From IMG/VR virus record IMGVR_UViG_3300023179_000013, positions 104,947-168,946 of that record: DNA of 64,000 bases. One strand, 5' to 3'. The notes under the pieces were generated by a model. It saw nothing but the letters and a program-made list of their open reading frames with translations, had not been told where the DNA came from and made no database searches. Shown piece after piece: positions 14,677 through 58,901 of the stretch. The stretch is from a virus. The position numbers and the translations under genes are program-made. The first letter of the stretch is position 1. Every line of letters begins with the position of its first letter.

Positions 14677-14888
14677 TGGCGTTAGTATCTGTAGAATATC
14701 ATCTTGAAACATGGGAGGAATTTGTTGAATTTTGGAAATCAGACAAAATAGTATTCCGTGAAAAAAATATATTTGAGGATGAAAAAGGAAAGAAATGGTA
14801 CAGATTATATAACGAACCTACATTAAAATATCTTAGAGAAAAAATGTTAAGAGACATTGAATATTTAAACAATAAAGTAAATGAGTAA
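14676..14888 (+). CDS. 70-residue protein between groES and groEL
   Basis: Acidic/basic mixed protein with several Trp and a pattern EEFVEFWKSDKIVF; no family recognised. Overlaps groES by one base and groEL by 8 bases, so it is translated within the chaperonin operon and may act on it, by position only. Confidence 0.6.
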   Translation: MALVSVEYHLETWEEFVEFWKSDKIVFREKNIFEDEKGKKWYRLYNEPTLKYLREKMLRDIEYLNNKVNE

Positions 14889-16509
14889 AATAATTAAATT
14901 TGATAGAGAAGCTAAAGAAAAGCTTCAAGCCGGTATTGACAAGGTCAATAATGCCGTTTCTGTTACAATGGGTCCTTATGGCCGTAACGTATTAATTGAA
15001 AAAGAACACGGGCAAGTAGCATCAACTAAAGATGGTGTTACTGTTGCTAAAACAATTGTGTTAGAAGATCCAATTGAAAACATGGCTGCTACTGTTATTA
15101 AGCAAGCAGCTCAAAAAACAGTAGATGCTGCTGGTGATGGTACTACAACATCAACAGTATTAGCTCACGCTATTGCCTCTCAAGCATTGCTAGCAACGTC
15201 TTATGCTTCAACAAATGCCACTCAAATAAAGCGTGGTATTGAAGAGGCTGTTAAGCAAGTAGTAGCTGAGTTGAAAGAAATGTCTACACCTATTACTGAT
15301 GAAAAGCAAATTAAACAAATTGCTACTCTATCAGCTAACGGAGATGAGGAGATTGGTAACTTGGTAGCTACCGCTATTGAAAAAGTGGGCAGGGATGGAG
15401 TTGTTACTGTTGAAGAGTCTCGTACAGGCGAAACATCACTTGAGATTGTGGAAGGTATGCAATTCGATCGTGGTTACAAATCCCCTTACATGGTGACAGA
15501 CAATAATACAATGACAGCAGTATTAGATGAACCATTGTTATTGATTGTAGATAGCCGAATTACCCAAGTAAAAGATTTACTTCCAATCCTCGAATCAGTA
15601 TCTCAGCAGAATAAATCACTCTTTATTGTAGCTGAAGATATCGATGGTGAAGCACTTGCTACATTGATTGTAAATAAAATGAGAGGTGCTCTTAAAGTAG
15701 CTGCTGTTAAAGCACCTGACTTTGGAGATCGCCGAACATTGATTTTAGAAGATATCGCTACATTAACAGGTGGTACTGTAGTATCATCTCAAAAAGGTAT
15801 GCGTTTGGATAAATTCAATAAAGATTGGTTTGGACAAGCTCGTACTATTACTGTAGGTAAAGAAACAACTACTATTGTTGATGGTAGAGGTGATGCTGAT
15901 AAGATTGAAGCTCGTATTGTAGAATTAAAAACACAAATTGATGCTTCAACATCACCATATGAAATTGAGCGTTTGCAAGATCGCTTAGCTAAGATGGTTG
16001 GTGGTGTAGCTATCATTAACGTAGGTGGTGGTACTGAAATCGAAATGAAAGAAAAGAAAGATCGCCTTGATGATGCTTTACAAGCAACTAAAGCAGCACT
16101 TGATGAAGGTATTTTACCTGGTGCTGGTGTTGCTCTATTTAAAGCCAAAGACATTATTACAGGTATAGATAATACAGATTTTGGTAAAGGACGTAAAATA
16201 GTATTCCAGGCGTGCTCCTCACCATTCACTCAAATCTTAACTAATGCTGGTGAAGATGCTAATGAATGGAGTGGTAAATGGAGTAAATTCTTCAAAACTG
16301 AAAACACTGTTCCTGATATTACTAACAACACCATAGTAAATGCATTTGATTCAGGTATTATAGACCCAACCAAAGTAGTACGCTCAGCACTTGAAAATGC
16401 CGCTGCCGCTGCAGTAACATTACTTATGACTGAGTGTGTTATCCATGAAAAAGTAGATAAGGATAAAAAACCTGCCGCTAATGATTTCGGAATGGATTTA
16501 GGAATGTAA
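14881..16509 (+). CDS. groEL: Chaperonin GroEL
   Basis: 542 residues, close to the 548 of E. coli. ATP-site motifs VTMGPYGRNV, STKDGVTVAK and GDGTTTSTVLA are intact; GGG-type turn VGGGTEIEMKEKKDR and the PGAGVA strand are present. The tail ends DFGMDLGM, with only a remnant of the Gly-Met repeat. A complete GroES/GroEL pair implies some phage protein needs a dedicated chamber, probably in virion assembly (inference). Confidence 0.95.
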   Translation: MSKIIKFDREAKEKLQAGIDKVNNAVSVTMGPYGRNVLIEKEHGQVASTKDGVTVAKTIVLEDPIENMAATVIKQAAQKTVDAAGDGTTTSTVLAHAIASQALLATSYASTNATQIKRGIEEAVKQVVAELKEMSTPITDEKQIKQIATLSANGDEEIGNLVATAIEKVGRDGVVTVEESRTGETSLEIVEGMQFDRGYKSPYMVTDNNTMTAVLDEPLLLIVDSRITQVKDLLPILESVSQQNKSLFIVAEDIDGEALATLIVNKMRGALKVAAVKAPDFGDRRTLILEDIATLTGGTVVSSQKGMRLDKFNKDWFGQARTITVGKETTTIVDGRGDADKIEARIVELKTQIDASTSPYEIERLQDRLAKMVGGVAIINVGGGTEIEMKEKKDRLDDALQATKAALDEGILPGAGVALFKAKDIITGIDNTDFGKGRKIVFQACSSPFTQILTNAGEDANEWSGKWSKFFKTENTVPDITNNTIVNAFDSGIIDPTKVVRSALENAAAAAVTLLMTECVIHEKVDKDKKPAANDFGMDLGM

Positions 16510-20999: not shown

Positions 21000-22457
21000 A
21001 TGAAAGAAGGTTATATTGAACAATCAAAACGTAAGAAAATCTTACTGTTATGTGATGATATCAGAATGACTTCTGGTATTTCTACAATGGCTCGTGAAAT
21101 CGTAGTAGGTACATCACATCATTACAACTGGGTTAACGTTGGTGGAGCTATTAACCATCCTGATCAGGGCAAACGCTTTGATTTAAATGAGGATACTAAT
21201 AGACATGCTGGTATTAACGATGCTAGTGTTATATTATATCCGATTAATGGTTATGGTGATCCAATGTTTTTAAAGCAAATGATTGCCCTGGAAAAACCAG
21301 ATGCATTGATGATGTTTACCGATCCTCGCTATTGGGTTTGGTTATTTCAGATGGAACATGAAATCAGAAAAACTATTCCTATTATTTATCTTAATATTTG
21401 GGATGACTTACCTTATCCAATGTACAATAAGTCATTCTACGAATCATGTGATGCATTACTTGCAATCAGTAAACAAACAGAAAATCTAAACAGAGCAGTA
21501 TTAGGAGCAGAATTATCAACTGAAAAAGTAATCAAATATGTTCCTCATGGTATTAATGAGAATATATTCTTCCCTATTACTAAAGAACATCCCGAATACT
21601 TAGCATTACAAGATTTTAAGAAACAATTATTTAAAGAAAAAGAATACGATTTTGTATTACACTATAATGCTAGAAACATTCGTCGTAAGTCGGTTCCCGA
21701 TTTGATGTTAGCTTGGAAAATATTCATGGATAAATTATCTGATGATGCTAAAAAGAAATGTGCCTTTGTACTCCACACTCAACCAGTAGATGAAAATGGA
21801 ACAGATTTATATGCTGTAAAAGATATGTTATTTGGTAATTATGAATATAATATTATATTTGAACAGGGTCGTTATTCATCAAATGTAATGAATTTACTTT
21901 ATAATGCTACTGATATTACAGCATTAATTTCATCTAACGAAGGTTGGGGATTATCACTTACAGAAGCAATGATGTGTGGTAAGCCAATTATTGGTACTGT
22001 AACAGGTGGTATGCAAGACCAAATGCGCTTTGAAGATGAAAATGGTGAATGGATTAAATTCACTGAAGAATTTGGATCTAACCATAGAGGTAAATATAAA
22101 AAACACGGAAAATGGGCCTACCCAGTATTCCCATCTAACCTCTCCCTTGTAGGTTCTATTCCAACTCCTTATATCTTTGATGATAGAGCAGAACCATTTG
22201 ATATTGCAGATCAAATTAGTCGCGCTTATATTGATAAAATGAGTGACCCTAAAGAATGGGAAGAAAAAGGAAAAGCAGCTCGTGAGTGGGTTACCTCAGA
22301 TGAATCTATGCAATCTGCAAGATGGATGTGTAAAAATACCATCGATGGTATAGATGCTACTTTTGAAAAGTGGACTCCTCGTCATAGATTTGAACTCATT
22401 CAAGTAGAAACTCGTAAACAACCTAAACATTTCGTTAAACACGTTATCGCAAAATAA
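21000..22457 (+). CDS. GT-B glycosyltransferase (family 4-like)
   Basis: 485 residues. The C-terminal donor-binding motif SNEGWGLSLTEAMMCGKPIIGT (E-x7-E type) identifies a GT4-like retaining transferase; FVLHYNARNIRRKSVPDLM is the usual start of the second Rossmann domain. First large gene of the sugar island, paired with another GT4-like gene directly after. Acceptor and sugar unknown. Confidence 0.83.
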   Translation: MKEGYIEQSKRKKILLLCDDIRMTSGISTMAREIVVGTSHHYNWVNVGGAINHPDQGKRFDLNEDTNRHAGINDASVILYPINGYGDPMFLKQMIALEKPDALMMFTDPRYWVWLFQMEHEIRKTIPIIYLNIWDDLPYPMYNKSFYESCDALLAISKQTENLNRAVLGAELSTEKVIKYVPHGINENIFFPITKEHPEYLALQDFKKQLFKEKEYDFVLHYNARNIRRKSVPDLMLAWKIFMDKLSDDAKKKCAFVLHTQPVDENGTDLYAVKDMLFGNYEYNIIFEQGRYSSNVMNLLYNATDITALISSNEGWGLSLTEAMMCGKPIIGTVTGGMQDQMRFEDENGEWIKFTEEFGSNHRGKYKKHGKWAYPVFPSNLSLVGSIPTPYIFDDRAEPFDIADQISRAYIDKMSDPKEWEEKGKAAREWVTSDESMQSARWMCKNTIDGIDATFEKWTPRHRFELIQVETRKQPKHFVKHVIAK

Positions 22458-22458
22458 T

Positions 22459-23769
22459 ATGAAACAATTAATAATAGTAAGTTGTCCTATTGACACATAT
22501 TCTGGTTATGGTGCTCGCTCAAGAGATATTGTAAAAGCGCTTTTAAAAGCTAATAAATACGATGTCAAAATCCTCCCACAGAGATGGGGTAATACACCTT
22601 TTGGATTTTTACAAGCAGATAATCCTGAGCATAAGCAAATTCTAGATTGTTTCCTTCAGCAACCACAACTACCACGCCAACCAGATTGCTGGATTCAAAT
22701 CACAGTACCAAATGAATTCCAGCCAATAGGTAAATTTAACATTGGTATTACAGCAGGTATTGAAACAACGGTATGTGCTCCTGAATGGATTGATGGTGTT
22801 AATAGAATGAATTTAACATTAGTATCGTCTGAACATGCTAAGAAAGTATTTGAACAATCAGCATTTGAACAACGTGACCAACAATCAGGTCAAGTTATAA
22901 GAAATATTAAACTTGAAAAACCAGTAGAGGTATTATTTGAAGGTGTTGATACTAGCATTTATGAAAAAATAGATGCTGTTAATGATAGTGAAGTATGGGA
23001 TGTATTAGATTCAATCGATGAAGAATTTAATTTCCTATATGTTGGTCATTGGTTGCAAGGTGAATTAGGACAAGATAGAAAAGATACAGGTATGTTAGTT
23101 AAAACGTTCCTTGAAACGTTTAAAGGTAAAAAAACAAAACCGGGTCTTATTATGAAAACATCTTCTGCTACTTATTCAATTATGGATAGAGAAGAGATTA
23201 TTGATAAAATTAATAGAATTCGTGAGGCAGTAGGAGATGAAAATTTACCTAACATCTATGTATTACATGGTGAATTAACAGATAATGAAGTAAATGAATT
23301 ATATAATCACCCTAAAGTAAAAGCACACGTTACATTTACTAAAGGTGAAGGATTCGGTCGCCCATTACTTGAAGCATCAGTTAGTCAAAAACCAGTAATT
23401 GCCCCCAATTGGAGTGGACATGTTGATTTTCTTGGCCCTGAACTGTCAATATTACTGCCTGGCCAAATTACCCAGATTCATCCTTCAGCAGTAGTACAAA
23501 ATATGCTTATTCCTGAATCAGGATGGTTTACAGTTGATTATAAAATAGCTTCTGAAACACTAGAAAGCGTTTATAAGAACTATAAAAAATATCTTGATGG
23601 AGCAAAACGCCAAGCATATATTTCCCGTACTGAATTCAATTTAGACAAAATGGCTGAAAAATTGAATGACATTATTGAGGAAAAAGTACCTAAACAAGTA
23701 GCACTTAAATTGCCTACATTAAAGAAAATCGAGTTACCTAAACTTAAAAAGGTAGATGATGCAAAATAA
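22459..23769 (+). CDS. GT-B glycosyltransferase (family 4-like)
   Basis: 436 residues; KGEGFGRPLLEASVSQKPVIAP is the E-x7-E donor motif and FLYVGHWLQGELGQDRKD marks the second domain. N-terminal SCPIDTYSGYGARSRDIVKAL resembles the acceptor-domain glycine loop. Ends with a Lys/Leu/Pro repeat-like tail (LPTLKKIELPKLKK). Probably works with the preceding transferase. Confidence 0.83.
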   Translation: MKQLIIVSCPIDTYSGYGARSRDIVKALLKANKYDVKILPQRWGNTPFGFLQADNPEHKQILDCFLQQPQLPRQPDCWIQITVPNEFQPIGKFNIGITAGIETTVCAPEWIDGVNRMNLTLVSSEHAKKVFEQSAFEQRDQQSGQVIRNIKLEKPVEVLFEGVDTSIYEKIDAVNDSEVWDVLDSIDEEFNFLYVGHWLQGELGQDRKDTGMLVKTFLETFKGKKTKPGLIMKTSSATYSIMDREEIIDKINRIREAVGDENLPNIYVLHGELTDNEVNELYNHPKVKAHVTFTKGEGFGRPLLEASVSQKPVIAPNWSGHVDFLGPELSILLPGQITQIHPSAVVQNMLIPESGWFTVDYKIASETLESVYKNYKKYLDGAKRQAYISRTEFNLDKMAEKLNDIIEEKVPKQVALKLPTLKKIELPKLKKVDDAK

Positions 23770-50988: not shown

Positions 50989-51350
50989 GGGGGAGCCAGG
51001 TATTGCTCCGTAATGTGAAGGTACCACTACATGCAGACGGTTGGTAGAAGTCGTCTTTAAACAAACTGCAAACAACAACTGACGAAATGTCAACAATGAC
51101 CTTCGACGACCTTATGGCGTTCGTAGGTGCCGATTACGCTGTAGCAGCCTAATCCGCAAGGGGCAGCTGATAGCCTTGCAACAGAACAGCACTATAGGTT
51201 TCCTGTTTTTCCTAAAAAATAGGTGGTGGATGGCACGTTAACCAAAACTAGCGGCCCCAAATTACTGATCAGTTAATTCAGATCTAAGCATGTGATACGC
51301 TGGTGTTATTGTTCCTTACGGATACACGGGTTCGATTCCCGTCTCCTCCA
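50989..51350 (+). ncRNA. ssrA: tmRNA (transfer-messenger RNA)
   Basis: 5' GGGGGAG (50989-50995) pairs with 3' CTCCTCC (51343-51349) as the acceptor stem, with discriminator A; the T-arm ACGGG-TTCGATT-CCCGT lies just before. The 5' part CTACATGCAGACGGTTGG resembles the GTGCATGCCGAG...GCGGTTGG region of bacterial tmRNA, with an AGACG/CGTCT stem where pseudoknot 1 begins. A tag frame ends GADYAVAA then TAA at 51150-51152. After it, GCAAGG/CCTTGC and later repeats suit pseudoknots. 362 bases, typical length. CCA not encoded. Rescues stalled ribosomes and tags the nascent chain. Confidence 0.9.
51084..51152 (+). other. Predicted tmRNA tag frame
   Basis: Frame ending GGT GCC GAT TAC GCT GTA GCA GCC TAA. 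By position (95 bases from the RNA 5' end, compared with 89 before the resume codon in E. coli) and by the preceding AACTGAC (compare AATAGTC), the resume codon is probably GAA at 51084, giving a tag of about 22 residues starting EMST. A short 8-residue tag GADYAVAA starting at 51126 is the alternative. The frame is open back to about 51045. Confidence 0.5.
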
Positions 51351-51355
51351 CAAGT

Positions 51356-51404: not shown

Positions 51405-51435
51405 AAGGGTGGTTCGCTAGCGAACCGCCCTTTTT
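51405..51435 (+). terminator. Strong terminator, end of RNA block
   Basis: AAGGG-T-GGTTCGCTAGCGAACC-G-CCC followed by TTTTT. The core GGTTCGCTAGCGAACC is a perfect palindrome. Second of two tandem terminators. Confidence 0.88.
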
Positions 51436-51463: not shown

Positions 51464-51979
51464 ATGAGAACTTTATTTACAACAATATTGATATCATTAT
51501 ATACGGTACTAGCCGCTCAAAAAGCTGTTCCTGAGGGAGAAATAAATTCACCCACATCTCCCTTCACCACAGTACATATTGGTACTGTTACTAATAAAGT
51601 TAAAATAGGCCCACTTACTGGAAATAAAAACTTAGCATTTGGTGTTAAAAACATAACTGAAGAAGCTATACTAGATAAAGGATATGATTTGACTGATAGC
51701 TCAGAACTTAGATTAGATTTAGAGATAATTTATCTTGACATTCAACAAACATCAACTGGTGTAAGTGTGTTTCATAAAACAGAAAACGAAACAATAATTA
51801 GAATAAAAGGTATTCTTTATATAAACAATAAAAAATCAAAAGAATACGTTGCAACAGGCAAGTCCTCCGAAATATCTACATCTACAATGATTATTGATGA
51901 AGGTGGTGGTTTTAATCAAGCTTCGGCTCGTTCTGCTTTGAAAAAAACCATTATTAACCTAATCGAAAAACTCCTATGA
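51464..51979 (+). CDS. Secreted/periplasmic protein of unknown function
   Basis: 171 residues with a signal peptide (about 1-18, ending LAA) and a mature part containing SELRLDLEIIYLDIQQTSTGVSVFHKTENETIIRIKGILY, alternating strands as in CsgG- or lipoprotein-associated domains. The GGGFNQASARSALKKTIINLIEKLL end is helical and resembles the last helix of CsgG-type subunits. First gene of the envelope island, overlapping the next by 4 bases. Confidence 0.6.
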   Translation: MRTLFTTILISLYTVLAAQKAVPEGEINSPTSPFTTVHIGTVTNKVKIGPLTGNKNLAFGVKNITEEAILDKGYDLTDSSELRLDLEIIYLDIQQTSTGVSVFHKTENETIIRIKGILYINNKKSKEYVATGKSSEISTSTMIIDEGGGFNQASARSALKKTIINLIEKLL

Positions 51980-53865
51980 AAAAACTATTATTAGCAATTG
52001 CGCTTTTAATCAGTTATGTAACCACATTCGCTCAAACACCTCAAATTGGACATTTCCAAACACTAGCCACTGTTAGAAGAGGTGATACATTAGATGTTAC
52101 CTGGTATTATAGACCTGGTGCTCCTGACATTCGTACATTCCAAGTTGATTGGCAGTACAAGAAAACATTATTAACTTATTTATCTACCACGGTAGATGCT
52201 TCAGTTAATGGTATGTCTCCATCTGTAAGTTATAAAACTTGGGATAACTACAAGTATAATAACTATTCAAATGGTACTTATACTTATTCATCAAATACAG
52301 ATTGGACAGTAGGACGTAACTATTTAGTATTATCAAGTGGTAATACAATTGGTTCAAACGGCTACATAATCCACAACAAATATAAGATTAATGCTGTAGC
52401 TCCAAACTACGTATCAGATACAATTACTGTAAACTGGGCTCGTATGTTTGACGTGAATGGTAATACTATTGGTGATAACGTAGCTCAACTTACAAACCAA
52501 AAATTAGCTATTAAATTATTAGGTAACTTAACATTATCAGGTAAAGTATGGTTAGGACCAAATATGGCTTTAAAACCTGTAGTTATCTGTACTCAAGCTA
52601 ATAACGGTGCTTTTATAGATTCAATCACAGTAAATACTGATGGTACTTATACTTTAGATAATATAGATGAAAATACAAGGTATAAATTAACAGTTAAATT
52701 CCCATCTGCTTTAGCAACTATTAGAGATAATGCTGTAACAATTGCTGATGCTGTTAAAACATATGATGAATATACAGTAACAGACGTTAACCAAACATTC
52801 AGTCGTCAGTACTTAAAATATGGTTTATCTTATTTGATTGCTGATGTTAACAAAACAGGTGCATTAGATGGTGGTGATGCTTATTCAATCTATGCTTCAG
52901 TATCAGGATTAAAACCAATTGATACAACTAAAGTATTAAACGTATTTAAAAAAGATGTATATGATTCATTAGTATTAGGTGCTAACCAATGGAATGATTG
53001 GGTTACTTATATTAACGGAGTAACTTACATTTACGATAGTGTAGGTACAGTTAACTTAACTGGGGTTGATATTAAGTATTTCATCTTAGGTGACGTTGAT
53101 AGAAGCCATTCATCTCCAGTATACGATGCAGGTGGTGGATTAATCGTAGGTGCTAGATATATTGGTAATTTAGATATTAGCATTCCAAATGTATCTGCTC
53201 CAACAGGTCAAGCAATGTATGCTTCATTTAATATGAATACAAACGGTATTAAAAATGATGGTCTACAGTTTGAAATGAGATACGATCCAACTAAAGTTAA
53301 ATTTGAAGAAATTGTATCTAATATTCAAGGTCCTTGGTTACAATATTTAACACATGATGAAGCAAATGGTATTATCCGTTTTGGTGGAATGAATAATCAA
53401 ACTGCGGGTTCATTAGTTAATAATGTAACTCCATTTAGATTAAAATTCTCTCCAATTGGAACAGGTGATGTATTAACTAACGTATATGTTAGACAATTAA
53501 TGGATGCTTCTGATAAAAACGGAGATCACTTTAACATCAATTTACAATCTGATTATGTAGTATTAGCTACAAGACCAGCTCCAATTGCAACACCTGAGAA
53601 AGAAATAACTGCTATGATTCGTCCAAATCCAACAAGTGGATTTTTTGAATTGGTAGTTACTTTCCCAAACAACAATATGGCAATGAATGCTAGAGTATAT
53701 GATGTACAAGGTAGATTAGTAAAAGAAATAGGTAAAGTAGCTAGTGATAATTACTATACAACTGTAATTAAACAAGTTGATTTAACGCAAGCTAGAGATG
53801 GTCACTATTTATTAGTGTTAGATAACGAAAGTAAAAAATTAACTAAACAATTTATAAAAGCATAA
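51976..53865 (+). CDS. T9SS-exported protein with dockerin-like repeats
   Basis: 629 residues. Signal peptide about 1-19 (ending FAQT). Middle region is beta-rich. A dockerin-like calcium repeat ADVNKTGALDGGDAYSIYAS occurs near residue 290 and a second LGDVDRSHSS near 372, followed by a cohesin-like domain (LQFEMRYDPTKVKFEEI). From about residue 545 (IRPNPTSGFFELVV) to the end KKLTKQFIKA is a Por-type C-terminal sorting domain, which directs export through the Bacteroidetes type IX system. So the phage appears to use the host T9SS to place a protein on or outside the cell. Confidence 0.82.
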   Translation: MKKLLLAIALLISYVTTFAQTPQIGHFQTLATVRRGDTLDVTWYYRPGAPDIRTFQVDWQYKKTLLTYLSTTVDASVNGMSPSVSYKTWDNYKYNNYSNGTYTYSSNTDWTVGRNYLVLSSGNTIGSNGYIIHNKYKINAVAPNYVSDTITVNWARMFDVNGNTIGDNVAQLTNQKLAIKLLGNLTLSGKVWLGPNMALKPVVICTQANNGAFIDSITVNTDGTYTLDNIDENTRYKLTVKFPSALATIRDNAVTIADAVKTYDEYTVTDVNQTFSRQYLKYGLSYLIADVNKTGALDGGDAYSIYASVSGLKPIDTTKVLNVFKKDVYDSLVLGANQWNDWVTYINGVTYIYDSVGTVNLTGVDIKYFILGDVDRSHSSPVYDAGGGLIVGARYIGNLDISIPNVSAPTGQAMYASFNMNTNGIKNDGLQFEMRYDPTKVKFEEIVSNIQGPWLQYLTHDEANGIIRFGGMNNQTAGSLVNNVTPFRLKFSPIGTGDVLTNVYVRQLMDASDKNGDHFNINLQSDYVVLATRPAPIATPEKEITAMIRPNPTSGFFELVVTFPNNNMAMNARVYDVQGRLVKEIGKVASDNYYTTVIKQVDLTQARDGHYLLVLDNESKKLTKQFIKA

Positions 53866-53868
53866 TTT

Positions 53869-54201
53869 ATGTCAGAAGAAACAAACGTACAAGACCATAA
53901 CGACGGAACTTGGTCAGGTCTTAAAAAAACAATCATTGGTACTATAAGTACAGCTATATTAGGTGCTGGTACTTGGTTTATGACTACTTTCTTTGGTGGC
54001 CATAAAGAAGATAAAGAAGAACCTAAAACAGAACAAGCTACTCCAGCTGCTCAACCTACTATTGTTATTAATAATACTCAACAGCAACAACAAGCTGCTG
54101 GTGGAACAAAAGTAATCGAACGCGTAGTTGAAAAACCAGCTGCTAAACCAGCTGAGCCAGCTAAGCCTAAGAAGGAGTTTTCGGAAGAACCAAAATGGTA
54201 A
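53869..54201 (+). CDS. Small single-pass membrane protein with Ala/Pro/Lys tail
   Basis: 110 residues. One hydrophobic segment (IIGTISTAILGAGTWFMTTFFGG, about 21-43), then Gln-rich and Ala/Pro/Lys-rich low-complexity stretches (KPAAKPAEPAKPKK). TonB-like or spanin-like in composition. No family assigned. Confidence 0.6.
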   Translation: MSEETNVQDHNDGTWSGLKKTIIGTISTAILGAGTWFMTTFFGGHKEDKEEPKTEQATPAAQPTIVINNTQQQQQAAGGTKVIERVVEKPAAKPAEPAKPKKEFSEEPKW

Positions 54202-54223
54202 TTAACAATTAAAATTTAAAAGT

Positions 54224-54490
54224 ATGAAATGGTTTAAATCGTTGTTCGATGATAACAACACAATCAATGAAAAATCAGTTGTAGGATTTTTAGCTTTCTT
54301 TATGATGGTAATTGCTTTAGGCGTTGACATCATTACTGGATGGCTTGGAAGAGAATTCATGATTAATGAATTTATCTTTGATGGCTTTATGGTAATTGTA
54401 TTAGGTTCATTTGGTATTGGATCTATTGACAAGTTTATCAATGCTAAGCATAATAAAAAACCAGAAGAAGAAACTCCAACTGAAGAATAA
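54224..54490 (+). CDS. Holin-like two-helix membrane protein
   Basis: 88 residues with hydrophobic segments at about 20-41 and 52-70 and a charged tail KKPEEETPTEE. Size and topology fit a small phage holin, but the endolysin is 6 kb away and no holin family signature is certain. Confidence 0.5.
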   Translation: MKWFKSLFDDNNTINEKSVVGFLAFFMMVIALGVDIITGWLGREFMINEFIFDGFMVIVLGSFGIGSIDKFINAKHNKKPEEETPTEE

Positions 54491-55245
54491 TGGAAAAAAA
54501 GTCTAATATGATTAAAGCAATTATTGGTATAATTACGTACTTCATATTGATGTTTACACTAGCTACTAAGTGTAATGCTCAAGTAGTAGGTAAAACTACA
54601 ACTGAAGATTATAAAGCATCATTTGAAAAAAAATCAAATATTGATAGTCTATTAGATTATGACGGCCCTAAAATCCCAATTCAGATACTTAGCTTAGGCA
54701 TCAGTGATGATGTCTATGCTATGTATCCTGAATTAAAGGATAAGCGTGTTGGGTTAGGTGTAACTAACATTGTAGTTGAATTTTTAGAAGAAACTAACCA
54801 CTTTACTTTTACTGAAGATAAAACTGAAATTAAAAATAGAATGGTTAAGCAATTCCAAGCGTCACAATCTGGAATTACTGAAGATAAATTAGATGGTAGA
54901 GGTAAAATTAGATTAGCTCATTACTTCGCTTATATAGAAGTATATGACTTTTCAGTTTCAGAAGATGAAACAGTAAATATGAAAGATGGAGTTAAAAATA
55001 CTGTTGTGACTCGTCTTGGTTTACAAGTTAAATTTGTTGATGCTGAAACAGGTGAATACTTCACTGGTTCGGGTTTAGGTGAAGCTAAAACAGTTAGAGA
55101 GTTAACATTAATGAATGATGATAACTTTAGTGAAGTTAAATTTAATCAATCAACAATAGGTACCTCAACTAAAAAAGCACTTGAAATAGCGGCGGGTAAA
55201 ATATTACTTCGTATGCATAAGAAAGGTATATTTAAATTACAATAA
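54490..55245 (+). CDS. CsgG-like curli-type secretion protein
   Basis: 251 residues with an N-terminal signal (about 8-30). LGVTNIVVEFLEETNHFTFTEDKTEIKNRMVKQFQ, RLAHYFAYIEVYDFSV, LGLQVKFVDAETGEYFTGSGLGEAK and the last helix match the CsgG family layout (nucleotide-like alpha/beta domain with two barrel strands). CsgG forms an outer-membrane channel in bacteria. The lipidation Cys is not clearly placed (TLATKC), so membrane anchoring differs from CsgG or is absent. Confidence 0.7.
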   Translation: MEKKSNMIKAIIGIITYFILMFTLATKCNAQVVGKTTTEDYKASFEKKSNIDSLLDYDGPKIPIQILSLGISDDVYAMYPELKDKRVGLGVTNIVVEFLEETNHFTFTEDKTEIKNRMVKQFQASQSGITEDKLDGRGKIRLAHYFAYIEVYDFSVSEDETVNMKDGVKNTVVTRLGLQVKFVDAETGEYFTGSGLGEAKTVRELTLMNDDNFSEVKFNQSTIGTSTKKALEIAAGKILLRMHKKGIFKLQ

Positions 55246-55246
55246 C

Positions 55247-55354
55247 ATGGCACGCTCTAAAAAGAAACATTACAATCAACGCAGTATAAAAGCTGGTCGT
55301 AAAACAGCTAAACGCATAGCAGCAAATCATAAGGTTTTAAAATCATTAAAATAA
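55247..55354 (+). CDS. 35-residue highly basic peptide
   Basis: Starts ARSKKKHYNQRS and is almost half Lys/Arg/His/Gln, with no acidic residue. Placed one base after the CsgG-like gene. Ribosomal-protein-like or nucleic-acid binding in composition; translation is not certain. Confidence 0.45.
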   Translation: MARSKKKHYNQRSIKAGRKTAKRIAANHKVLKSLK

Positions 55355-55365
55355 AACTCAAATGA

Positions 55366-56808
55366 TTGAAAAAATTAAGAACATATTTAATATTATTAAG
55401 CTTATTGCTGATAAGCTATTTAAAAAGTAACGGACAAACTCTTACTTATCAATTTATTGATCCGTGTACTAAGGTTGTAACATTTTTCTCTGTACCAGCA
55501 ACAGGAACAACAATATTTTTTCTAGGCAAATCAGCACAGTTTACTTCAGCAGATGTCGCATCAGGGGCATTTGCTGCTTGGATAAACCAAGCTTATACTG
55601 ATTATAGAAAAGTATCACCTTGTGGAGTACAACAAGGACAAATAACACAAAATCAAATTACATCACAAATTATTGGAAACACGGTTCAAAGTGTTGTAAG
55701 TAGTATTATGTCTTCAGCTCAATCCGTTGCTGGTGGAACAATTAGTGCTGGTGGAACAGATGCTGCTTCAAAAGGTAAAACCGAATCCGATAGCAAAAAG
55801 AAAGATAACAATGGAAATAATAACGGCAATAATGGCACTACTTCTAATGGTAGTAGTGGCACTGGGAGCAATACAAATGGCTCAGGAAATACGCAGAATG
55901 GGAGCAATACTTCTGGGGGCTCTAGTAGTAGCGGGACAGGGAATAATGGTAGTGGTGGTACTAGCGGGGGCGGTAATAATGGCAATAACTCAAATGGCAA
56001 TCAACAAAATCAAACAGAAAATAAAAACGGTGAAGAAGTAGGAGCTACAACAACAATAAATGTTGATGCTCAAAACCAAAAAAGTGAAACTAGTGGTGAT
56101 AATGGAGGAGGAGGTGGGGGAGGTAAAGGTGGAGGTAAAAGTAATAGCAAAAGTAGCTCTTCAAACCCAGTAATAGTATCATCTGACTTTACTACAGCAC
56201 AAAATCTAGACAAATCATTTACTCCAATACTTAATTTAAGTATGTCTCAATCATCAATGACAGGAATGTCAAGTTGGGGTACTACAGCCATGATATGGTT
56301 TAATTTTAAACAATTTGCCTTATCAGGTAAATACACTAAAATTAACTTTAGTAAAAATGGTAAATTAAAATGGGTACATAATATTAATTTAACTGCGGTT
56401 TACTCATATGGCAATATACTTGGGTTCGTTGGCTATAGCGGCATTTTAAACGCAGGTAAATGGGGTGTTACGGGCTTTAATACAAGCGCAGCAGCAACAT
56501 TAATGACTGAAGATAAAACAACGTTTATTTCCCCTTCAATTACTGCTTTTTATACTAGACCATTTAAAAGTGGTAAACGTTTAACCATATCTCCTGAGTT
56601 ATATGTTATGTCAACTCCGTTGATATATTCTACTAAGGAGAAAGTAACAACAACAGATAGAACATTTAGTGCGTTTATAGGTAGTGGGTTTGATTATCAA
56701 ATAACAAAACGCTTTAAAATGAACATGAATTATAAAGCAAATTTGTCTACTAACCCTGATTTCCCTATATTGTCATTTTTCCTAATTGGAAGTAAAGTTA
56801 ACCTATGA
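55366..56808 (+). CDS. Outer-membrane beta-barrel-like protein with Gly/Asn/Ser-rich region
   Basis: 480 residues starting at TTG 55366, with a signal peptide about 1-23 (ending NGQT). Residues about 120-260 are a low-complexity run of Gly, Asn, Ser and Thr. Residues about 285-480 show repeated amphipathic strands ending in SKVNL, as in outer-membrane barrels. An ATG four bases before the TTG is in another frame. Placed after CsgG-like gene; could change the host surface or form an adhesive layer. No family recognised. Confidence 0.65.
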   Translation: MKKLRTYLILLSLLLISYLKSNGQTLTYQFIDPCTKVVTFFSVPATGTTIFFLGKSAQFTSADVASGAFAAWINQAYTDYRKVSPCGVQQGQITQNQITSQIIGNTVQSVVSSIMSSAQSVAGGTISAGGTDAASKGKTESDSKKKDNNGNNNGNNGTTSNGSSGTGSNTNGSGNTQNGSNTSGGSSSSGTGNNGSGGTSGGGNNGNNSNGNQQNQTENKNGEEVGATTTINVDAQNQKSETSGDNGGGGGGGKGGGKSNSKSSSSNPVIVSSDFTTAQNLDKSFTPILNLSMSQSSMTGMSSWGTTAMIWFNFKQFALSGKYTKINFSKNGKLKWVHNINLTAVYSYGNILGFVGYSGILNAGKWGVTGFNTSAAATLMTEDKTTFISPSITAFYTRPFKSGKRLTISPELYVMSTPLIYSTKEKVTTTDRTFSAFIGSGFDYQITKRFKMNMNYKANLSTNPDFPILSFFLIGSKVNL

Positions 56809-57428
56809 GAACATTATTATTATTTTTATTGTTGAGTGTAAATGTGTTTGGTCAAGACACTATCACTATTCAACACAAAGCCTATTCAACTACATTTAGT
56901 AAATCAAAACATTATCCTGTTAAGGTAGAATGGTGGGTAACTAAAAACAGTTTAGTTTGTGATAACAAAATTAAACGTGGTGATAAATTTATACCTGATC
57001 CTAAATTAGCAACTGAAACTGATTTACAATCAAGTTATACAGGCCAAGGATTTGACCGCGGACATAATTTCCCAGCAGCTGATGCCGTTTGTGATCAAGT
57101 ATCAAACGATGAATCGTTTTACTTTAGTAACATGACTGCTCAATACCCAGCTTTAAACAGAGGTGATTGGAAATCTTTAGAATCATTTATTCGTGATTTA
57201 GCTTTACAAAACGATTCAACTAAAGTATGGTGTGGATCAGTTGGTGAAGATAAAAAGATAGGTATTGTTTCTGTACCTAAACAATGTTGGAAAGTTATTT
57301 ATGTAAAAAAAACAAATGAATGGTTAGCTTATTTATTTAATAATGACCTAAGTAAAGCTGATGGAATTGAAAATAATAAAGTAAAAGTGTCTGATATAGA
57401 AAAATTAACAGGATTCAAGTTTAAGTGA
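56805..57428 (+). CDS. Secreted DNA/RNA non-specific endonuclease (DRGH family)
   Basis: 207 residues. Signal peptide about 1-15 (ending VFGQ). GFDRGHNFPAADA contains the DRGH catalytic His, and YFSNMTAQYPALNRGDWKSLE is the NMxPQ...N-x-G-x-W metal motif with its Asn. Cuts DNA and RNA without sequence choice. Export suggests destruction of extracellular or periplasmic DNA, for example from competing phages. Confidence 0.88.
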   Translation: MRTLLLFLLLSVNVFGQDTITIQHKAYSTTFSKSKHYPVKVEWWVTKNSLVCDNKIKRGDKFIPDPKLATETDLQSSYTGQGFDRGHNFPAADAVCDQVSNDESFYFSNMTAQYPALNRGDWKSLESFIRDLALQNDSTKVWCGSVGEDKKIGIVSVPKQCWKVIYVKKTNEWLAYLFNNDLSKADGIENNKVKVSDIEKLTGFKFK

Positions 57429-58858
57429 GAAAACTACTAACCATATTATTACTATTCCCACTATTGGTATTTGGGCAGTCTATTACTGCACCACCAGGTA
57501 GAACCTACCAGGTGAATGTTAGTGGACAAGACGCTAGTGGATTTGTGATTAGTGGTTTTACTACAGAAACATTATTAACATCAATTGGTTTTGTTAACCC
57601 ACCAGCAGGTGTAACATTTAGTGTTACTACAACTACTGGTTTAACATTTGCTACTGGTTATAGCTCTTGGACAAACCAAACACGTTTAAGTTTTACAGGT
57701 ACTCAAGCTAATGTGAATAACGCTTTAGCATCATTGAAAGTAAATACAGGTGCTACTACAGGTAATGTTCAAATATCAATATCAACAACAGTAAACCCAT
57801 CAGGTTACTATTACAATGCTATTAATGGTCACTTTTATTTACCTGTATCAACGGGCCAGTATTACACAACAGCTAGATCATTAGCCACTCAACAAACATT
57901 TAAAGGACAAACAGGTTATCTTGTAACAGTTACTTCGGCAAATGAAGAAAATTTCATTATTGCTAATGTACCACAAAGTAATATTTGGATCGCGTTAACG
58001 GATGAAGTAACAGAAGGATATTGGAAAATAGATGCTGGACCTGAAGCAGGTACTTTAATTAAAACATCTAATGGGCAAACAACGGGTAATATAGCAGGCC
58101 AATATAATAACTGGTGTGGCGGCGAACCTAATAACTCTGGTAATGAAGACTATGCTGTAACTAAATGGAGTGGAGGTTCATGTTGGAATGACTTACCTAA
58201 TACATACGCTTGCGCTTATATAGTTGAATTTGGTACTTGGTCTAATCCAGCAGATGCTACATTTACAGGTTTTTATACAGCTAATACTACTAATACAGTA
58301 GCAATAACTAATAAATTAAGTGGAACAGTAACTGTACCAACATTAACGTCATATCCAGTACTTACATTATATAAAGTAGTGAATGGAGTTGAAACATTAG
58401 TTGATTATAAGACAGTAGCATCAAATGGTACTTATACATTTGTATTACCAAATCAAAATACAACTTATAAATTAGTACCATCATTAACAGTACAAGGTGT
58501 AACATCGACTGATTTTAATTTGGGTTGGGGTGAAGCACAAAATATAAACACACCTAATAATTTAACACCTGGGTTAGTAATGACAGGAACTAAACAATGG
58601 AAAGCGGCTGATGTAAATCAAAATGGAGTATTAGATTTAGGAGATGCTTTTTTAATTGCGGCTCATATTAGTGGATACAAACCTATAACACAGGTATTAT
58701 GGTTTAATGCTACTGATTATGATTTAATAACCAATTCTAATTTTGCTACAATTACCCCTGTAACATCATTTACAATCAATGTTACAACTAGTGATGTTAC
58801 TCAAAACATCAAATATTGTATATTAGGTGATATTAATTTATCTCATTCGTCGAATTAA
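57425..58858 (+). CDS. Secreted C-type-lectin protein with dockerin-like end
   Basis: 477 residues from GTG 57425, overlapping the nuclease by 4 bases. Signal peptide about 1-17 (ending VFGQ). Residues about 130-285 are a C-type lectin domain: HFYLPVSTGQYYTTARSLA, NIWIALTDEVTEGYWK and WCGGEPNNSGNEDYAV (the EPN sugar/calcium motif) and CWNDLPN. The end carries ADVNQNGVLDLGDAFLIAA and stops after LGDINLSHSSN, the same module found inside the protein at 51976 but without its T9SS tail. Confidence 0.78.
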   Translation: MRKLLTILLLFPLLVFGQSITAPPGRTYQVNVSGQDASGFVISGFTTETLLTSIGFVNPPAGVTFSVTTTTGLTFATGYSSWTNQTRLSFTGTQANVNNALASLKVNTGATTGNVQISISTTVNPSGYYYNAINGHFYLPVSTGQYYTTARSLATQQTFKGQTGYLVTVTSANEENFIIANVPQSNIWIALTDEVTEGYWKIDAGPEAGTLIKTSNGQTTGNIAGQYNNWCGGEPNNSGNEDYAVTKWSGGSCWNDLPNTYACAYIVEFGTWSNPADATFTGFYTANTTNTVAITNKLSGTVTVPTLTSYPVLTLYKVVNGVETLVDYKTVASNGTYTFVLPNQNTTYKLVPSLTVQGVTSTDFNLGWGEAQNINTPNNLTPGLVMTGTKQWKAADVNQNGVLDLGDAFLIAAHISGYKPITQVLWFNATDYDLITNSNFATITPVTSFTINVTTSDVTQNIKYCILGDINLSHSSN

Positions 58859-58868
58859 ATAGGTGAGT

Positions 58869-58901
58869 GATTGGGATAACTTGGTTGTCCCAATCCTTTT
58901 T
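58869..58901 (+). terminator. Rho-independent terminator, end of envelope island
   Basis: GATTGGGA (58869-58876) pairs perfectly with TCCCAATC (58888-58895) around an 11-base loop, followed by CTTTTT. Confidence 0.88.

Follow-up and report, generated by a model that had tools for sequence, protein, structure and literature searches.

The window, a 64,000-nucleotide stretch of viral DNA, contains an eight-gene operon (51464 to 58858) bounded by two 12-pair terminator-like hairpins. Most of the related loci keep six of the eight genes in the order seen here. The features of the operon, including the domains of the type IX secretion system (T9SS) cargo encoded by its second gene, are as follows.

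51405–51432, plus strand: terminator-like hairpin 5' of the operon, 12 pairs
51464–51979, plus strand: YajG-like secreted protein, 171 aa (Pfam Lipoprotein_16, E = 0.009, under the cut-off)
51976–53865, plus strand: T9SS cargo gene, 629 aa, with a signal peptide, an N-terminal beta domain, a CarboxypepD_reg/dockerin-like module, a cohesin and a type A C-terminal domain (CTD)
51976–52035, plus strand: signal peptide of the cargo, residues 1–20, present in every full-length homologue
52534–53121, plus strand: CarboxypepD_reg and dockerin-like module of the cargo, residues 187–382, also present in the lectin protein
53173–53580, plus strand: cohesin domain of the cargo, residues 400–535 (Foldseek; Pfam in homologues)
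53620–53859, plus strand: type A T9SS sorting domain of the cargo, residues 549–628
53869–54201, plus strand: small protein with a single transmembrane (TM) segment judged by eye, 110 aa, conserved in the operon
54224–54490, plus strand: holin-like small membrane protein, 88 aa, with a putative function assigned from its sequence and a homologue in 24 loci
54490–55245, plus strand: CsgG-like envelope protein, 251 aa (Foldseek, low-confidence model)
55366–56808, plus strand: secreted protein, 480 aa, with a conserved N-terminal TYxFxDPC segment, a low-complexity N/G/S middle and a beta-barrel-like C-terminus
56805–57428, plus strand: secreted DNA/RNA non-specific endonuclease (Pfam Endonuclease_NS, E = 3.8e-40; signal peptide by eye)
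57425–58858, plus strand: C-type lectin protein (Pfam Lectin_C, E = 2.8e-6, 28.5 bits against a cut-off of 22.6) ending in a dockerin-like module
58869–58895, plus strand: terminator-like hairpin at the 3' end of the operon, 12 pairs

The initial annotation had described the product of 51976–53865 as a phage protein with a signal peptide and a Por-type C-terminal domain, and both features were borne out at these exact coordinates. The N-terminus, MKKLLLAIALLISYVTTFAQ, is a typical Sec signal peptide as judged by eye. The hidden Markov search with the type A sorting domain that had been suggested as a check matched the C-terminus to Pfam PF18962 (Por_Secre_tail) over residues 550–627 (E = 1e-7, 32.5 bits) and to NCBIfam TIGR04183 over residues 549–628 (30.9 bits), both above the curated cut-offs of 27 and 23 bits, respectively. 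No second domain of this type occurs anywhere in the viral record from which the window is taken (168,946 bases).

A scan of IMG/VR with the cargo protein identified 57 homologous loci. All 35 different full-length sequences, that of the window included, have the signal peptide at the start and the CTD at the end. Por_Secre_tail was matched by 29 of 29 aligned homologues, and 15 phage records, the longest being 321 kb, had exactly one TIGR04183 match apiece, always above the cut-off. The match is more than chance, and the claim of a T9SS-type cargo in a phage is supported. The type A motifs PNP, YDxxG and GxY and the basic C-terminus are retained across the family, and the preceding linker drifts. 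Since the motifs are retained and the dN/dS ratio among ten close relatives is 0.20 in the CTD compared to 0.56 in the linker before it (0.07–0.12 in the other cargo domains), the tail is under purifying selection. At the level of sequence, the cargo is confirmed as a phage-encoded protein whose type A sorting domain for the T9SS is genuine. Among viral proteins, the best structural match to the cargo came from an uncultured Caudovirales phage and already bore the annotation "Secretion system C-terminal sorting domain". In two relatives (L115 and L107), a frame of 89 codons that matches the T9SS tail lies 5' of the CsgG-like gene at the position expected for the cargo, and appears to be a degenerate or rearranged version of it.

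Among isolates in the phage collection, the sole relative is Flavobacterium phage immuto (NC_055915), which carries the tail as well. Its growth on Flavobacterium supports the earlier assignment of the host group to the Bacteroidota. Its genes gp012–gp019 resemble the window operon in content with a partly different order. Unlike in the window, the protein is split in two, with the N-terminal and dockerin-like parts in gp014 and the cohesin and T9SS tail in gp015, and both halves start with a separate signal peptide. The gp015 protein scores above the Pfam cut-offs for both Cohesin and Por_Secre_tail; the immuto record annotates only cohesin domain-containing and hypothetical proteins. Since immuto was isolated on Flavobacterium sp. 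LMO8 and has the operon, the question of a surface role is directly testable.

The central part of the cargo was assigned from structure and from its homologues. In an AlphaFold model of the cargo (pLDDT = 78), the cohesin region matched solved cohesins in Foldseek with a probability of 1.00 and a TMt of up to 0.79. Pfam Cohesin was matched in 9 of 29 homologues, and the window cargo itself had no Pfam Cohesin match. The dockerin-like module contains a Ca-loop-like segment, DVNKTGALDGGD, at residues 290–301. A 12-residue pattern, DxNxxGxLDGGD, is conserved as in dockerin calcium loops, with a weaker second loop. The Dockerin_1 profile gave a weak match (E = 0.024) in one relative only, in a protein that also matches lectin and cohesin. 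A related dockerin-like module forms the C-terminal end of the downstream lectin protein (~32% identity among relatives). The N-terminal domain of the cargo was also considered as a second cohesin, which was unsupported. Cellulosome scaffolds share the cohesin fold and the presence of dockerin-like Ca-loop modules on partner proteins; in contrast to these, the present proteins are phage-encoded, include no enzyme scaffold and match the dockerin profile weakly. No earlier work on phage cohesin/dockerin systems was found in the literature searched. In a divergent relative (L078, 819–5505), a single 768 aa chain has lectin, dockerin-like and cohesin matches, and the sister-phage lipoprotein described below is also present, at another position.

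The genes around the cargo mostly encode envelope proteins. The stop of the YajG-like gene overlaps the start of the cargo gene, and it sits before the cargo in nearly all loci. For the CsgG-like protein, the Foldseek matches at E ≤ 0.001 were mostly to CsgG, with FlgT and other envelope lipoproteins also present, at low TM-scores and from a model with a pLDDT of 56. A PDB sequence search gave no match, PF03783 (CsgG) had no match among 25 members of the family, and hhalign comparisons to pelagiphage or Flavobacteriaceae CsgG were not significant. As a result, identity with CsgG by sequence was rejected and the term CsgG-like refers to structure only. The 480 aa protein may combine a barrel with a CsgF-like peptide; its identification as CsgF was rejected since there was no significant match and the TYxFxDPC segment is merely reminiscent. 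Curli-like (CsgG/CsgF) modules are known in pelagimyophages (PMC7029224) and in the methylophage Melnitz (PMC9004378), which likewise have a phage operon with a CsgG-like envelope protein. The window operon differs from these in having no significant CsgG sequence match and no curlin-like repeats that could be seen, and in having a T9SS cargo, cohesin and dockerin-like modules and a lectin.

The composition of the operon also raises the possibility of a role in lysis, in which the operon would serve as an outer-membrane disruption module and the tailed protein would link or open the outer membrane late in infection. A holin-like gene lies within the operon, an NlpC/P60 enzyme and a small TM protein are encoded just 3' of it in the window, and endolysin genes adjoin it in the window and some relatives, with a PG-binding/GH19 endolysin immediately 5' in two of them (L104 and L110). 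The structural matches of the CsgG-like protein point the same way, and a CsgG/CsgF pore has been proposed as a lysis timer in Melnitz (PMC9004378). However, homology to CsgG is unproven, and breakage of the outer membrane needs no cohesin, dockerin, lectin or export tag. In immuto, the operon comes after nucleotide metabolism genes and the annotated endolysin is several kb distant. A dedicated lysis module is considered unlikely, though not negligible.

The last two genes of the operon encode the nuclease, which few loci have, and the lectin protein. The latter has a signal peptide and no T9SS tail; to leave the cell it would have to ride on another protein or depend on lysis, which counts against the surface assembly proposed below. 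Since a C-type lectin protein is encoded in the same operon as the cargo, glycan binding by a putative assembly of these proteins is plausible.

An indication of a location for the cargo comes from sister phages. A search with the CsgG-like protein gave relatives in at least 503 stretches of viral DNA, and 80 of these loci were examined. In about half of the 80, the cohesin/dockerin protein has no CTD and its gene stops right after the cohesin, followed within a few bases by a gene for a lipoprotein of ~120 aa. Among 82 distinct proteins, 46 had the tail and no lipoprotein, 35 had the lipoprotein and no tail, and none had both; the remaining protein is that of immuto, whose tail was missed by the family profile and found by Pfam and NCBIfam. 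In a profile comparison, the C-terminal half of the lipoprotein aligned with the CTD (81%, E = 1.2e-5; controls at or below 8%), a weak likeness, and two of the lipoproteins match TIGR04183 under the cut-off. The lipoproteins are without the PNP motif. A lipobox-like motif was present in 33 of 33, and the lipobox cysteine is followed by polar and then acidic residues (acidic at +3 in 28 of 33 and at +5 in 21 of 33, counted without a control set). These residues resemble the export signal of Bacteroidetes surface lipoproteins (PMC5080379). The tail and the lipoprotein may therefore be two alternative Bacteroidota surface routes for one protein, and their exchange suggests that infected cells carry a surface structure made by these viruses.

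The best tree of the CsgG-like proteins requires four changes between tail and lipoprotein, and strong branch support extends to only one independent pair. The lectin/dockerin gene follows the form of the cargo: present and absent in 35 and 2 loci, respectively, with the tailed form, and in 2 and 25 with the lipoprotein form (immuto counted in the latter). The independent pairs behind this association are few (three overall, one of them on supported branches) and do not suffice for a sign test.

The exchange bears on two other readings of the cargo. One is that the complex is released onto capsule, matrix, extracellular DNA or neighbouring cells, where the nuclease and lectin would do the work. 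Both are secreted proteins of the operon, and T9SS substrates include a significant subset that is released instead of anchored (PMC10202324). Against this, the lipoprotein of the sister phages argues for anchoring, the nuclease is confined to few loci and a depolymerase domain was not found, which makes an extracellular product quite unlikely. The other is that the cargo is a virion protein, either a decoration or a fibre tip, whose CTD-like Ig domain would serve assembly and not secretion. Phages do reuse Ig-like folds on their virions, and in L104 and L110 the operon is bordered by tail-fibre-like genes; virion proteomics of immuto was not found in the literature searched. Since the signal peptide is conserved, the type A motif set is complete, the neighbouring genes encode envelope proteins and a lipoprotein stands in for the tail in relatives, a place on the virion is very improbable.

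The dependence of the cargo on its host was considered from the distribution of the translocon. Five related phage records other than the window's own were searched and had no SprA, and it was found in two Bacteroidota MAGs that contain related contigs. With no SprA in these five records, the cargo would rely on the translocon of the host. As Bacteroidota commonly have T9SS cargos, the gene might also be bacterial, arising from a misassigned contig or as a recent accessory cargo of the host. This origin was rejected and has scarcely any probability: the window has a phage DNA polymerase, clamp loader and head maturation protease, the operon is conserved in dozens of viral contigs and one isolated phage, and 100 Flavobacteriaceae genomes had no chromosomal homologue, with only a single phage-like MAG contig bearing the same operon.

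Type A cargos of the T9SS (TIGR04183/PF18962), such as RgpB and RemA, likewise have a signal peptide and a type A domain with its motifs. Unlike these, the window cargo is phage-encoded, lies among phage envelope genes and belongs to a group in which the related phage records searched are without the translocon. The initial annotation regarded the use of T9SS by a phage as new, which does not stand since T9SS-tailed BACON open reading frames were noted in crAss-like gut phage contigs in 2019 (PMC6949934) and three variable type A T9SS cargo genes were described in Cryophage in 2020 (PMC7468147). The former share the T9SS domain in phage contigs and differ in architecture and in their location beside head genes. 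The latter are variable accessory genes (endoglucanase, GH39 and PA14) as opposed to the one conserved cohesin/dockerin gene in a fixed operon described here. Three things are new, and the first reading of the sequence had missed all of them: one conserved cargo that combines a cohesin and a dockerin-like module, the fixed operon around it, and a lipoprotein that takes the place of the tail in sister phages. No earlier description of these features was found in a literature search that excluded most subscription journals and preprints.

Taken together, the favoured reading, which is slightly more probable than not, is that the phage-encoded type A T9SS cargo acts on the outside of infected Bacteroidota cells as part of a predicted surface assembly. 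Since both signals are present and Sec export followed by T9SS translocation is the established behaviour of type A CTD proteins (PMC10202324), the cargo would be exported by Sec and carried over the outer membrane by the host T9SS (PorV/SprA), which would then anchor or release it. From the domains, the cohesin is predicted to bind dockerin-like modules. The likeliest partner is the module of the nearby lectin protein, with that of the cargo itself as a further possibility, and binding would result in a surface assembly that bears the lectin. The CsgG-like, YajG-like and barrel-like proteins would form a periplasmic or outer-membrane base. The most likely use of such an assembly would be a change of the infected-cell surface, either for superinfection exclusion or for binding to glycans or neighbouring cells, and it may also help lysis.

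A broader and more speculative reading, which is doubtful at present, is that large Bacteroidota phages have a dedicated surface machine resembling a cellulosome or curli organelle with interchangeable anchoring. In this scheme, a cohesin/dockerin protein, either exported by T9SS or paired with a lipoprotein according to lineage, would sit on a CsgG-like outer-membrane base and display the C-type lectin, perhaps as a fibre formed through its own cohesin and dockerin. If the favoured reading is right, a widespread group of large phages would use the host T9SS as a fixed strategy and not through a chance acquisition, and these phages could swap T9SS for another Bacteroidota surface route.

Several other features of the window were observed. 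A phage-encoded GroEL-type chaperonin is present at 14881–16509 (phrog_5725, E = 1.5e-151). Two adjacent glycosyltransferases at 21000–23769 are related to phrog_2170 and perhaps change host surface glycans. A guessed pattern, TATATTT-N7-TA, occurs at 15 places in the window compared to 6.5 expected from shuffles, and these sites are possibly promoters. A phage tmRNA lies at 50989–51353 after a cluster of six tRNAs (tag ADYAVAA; Rfam RF00023, 61 bits); phages of the Melnitz type that have curli genes likewise encode a tmRNA (PMC9004378).
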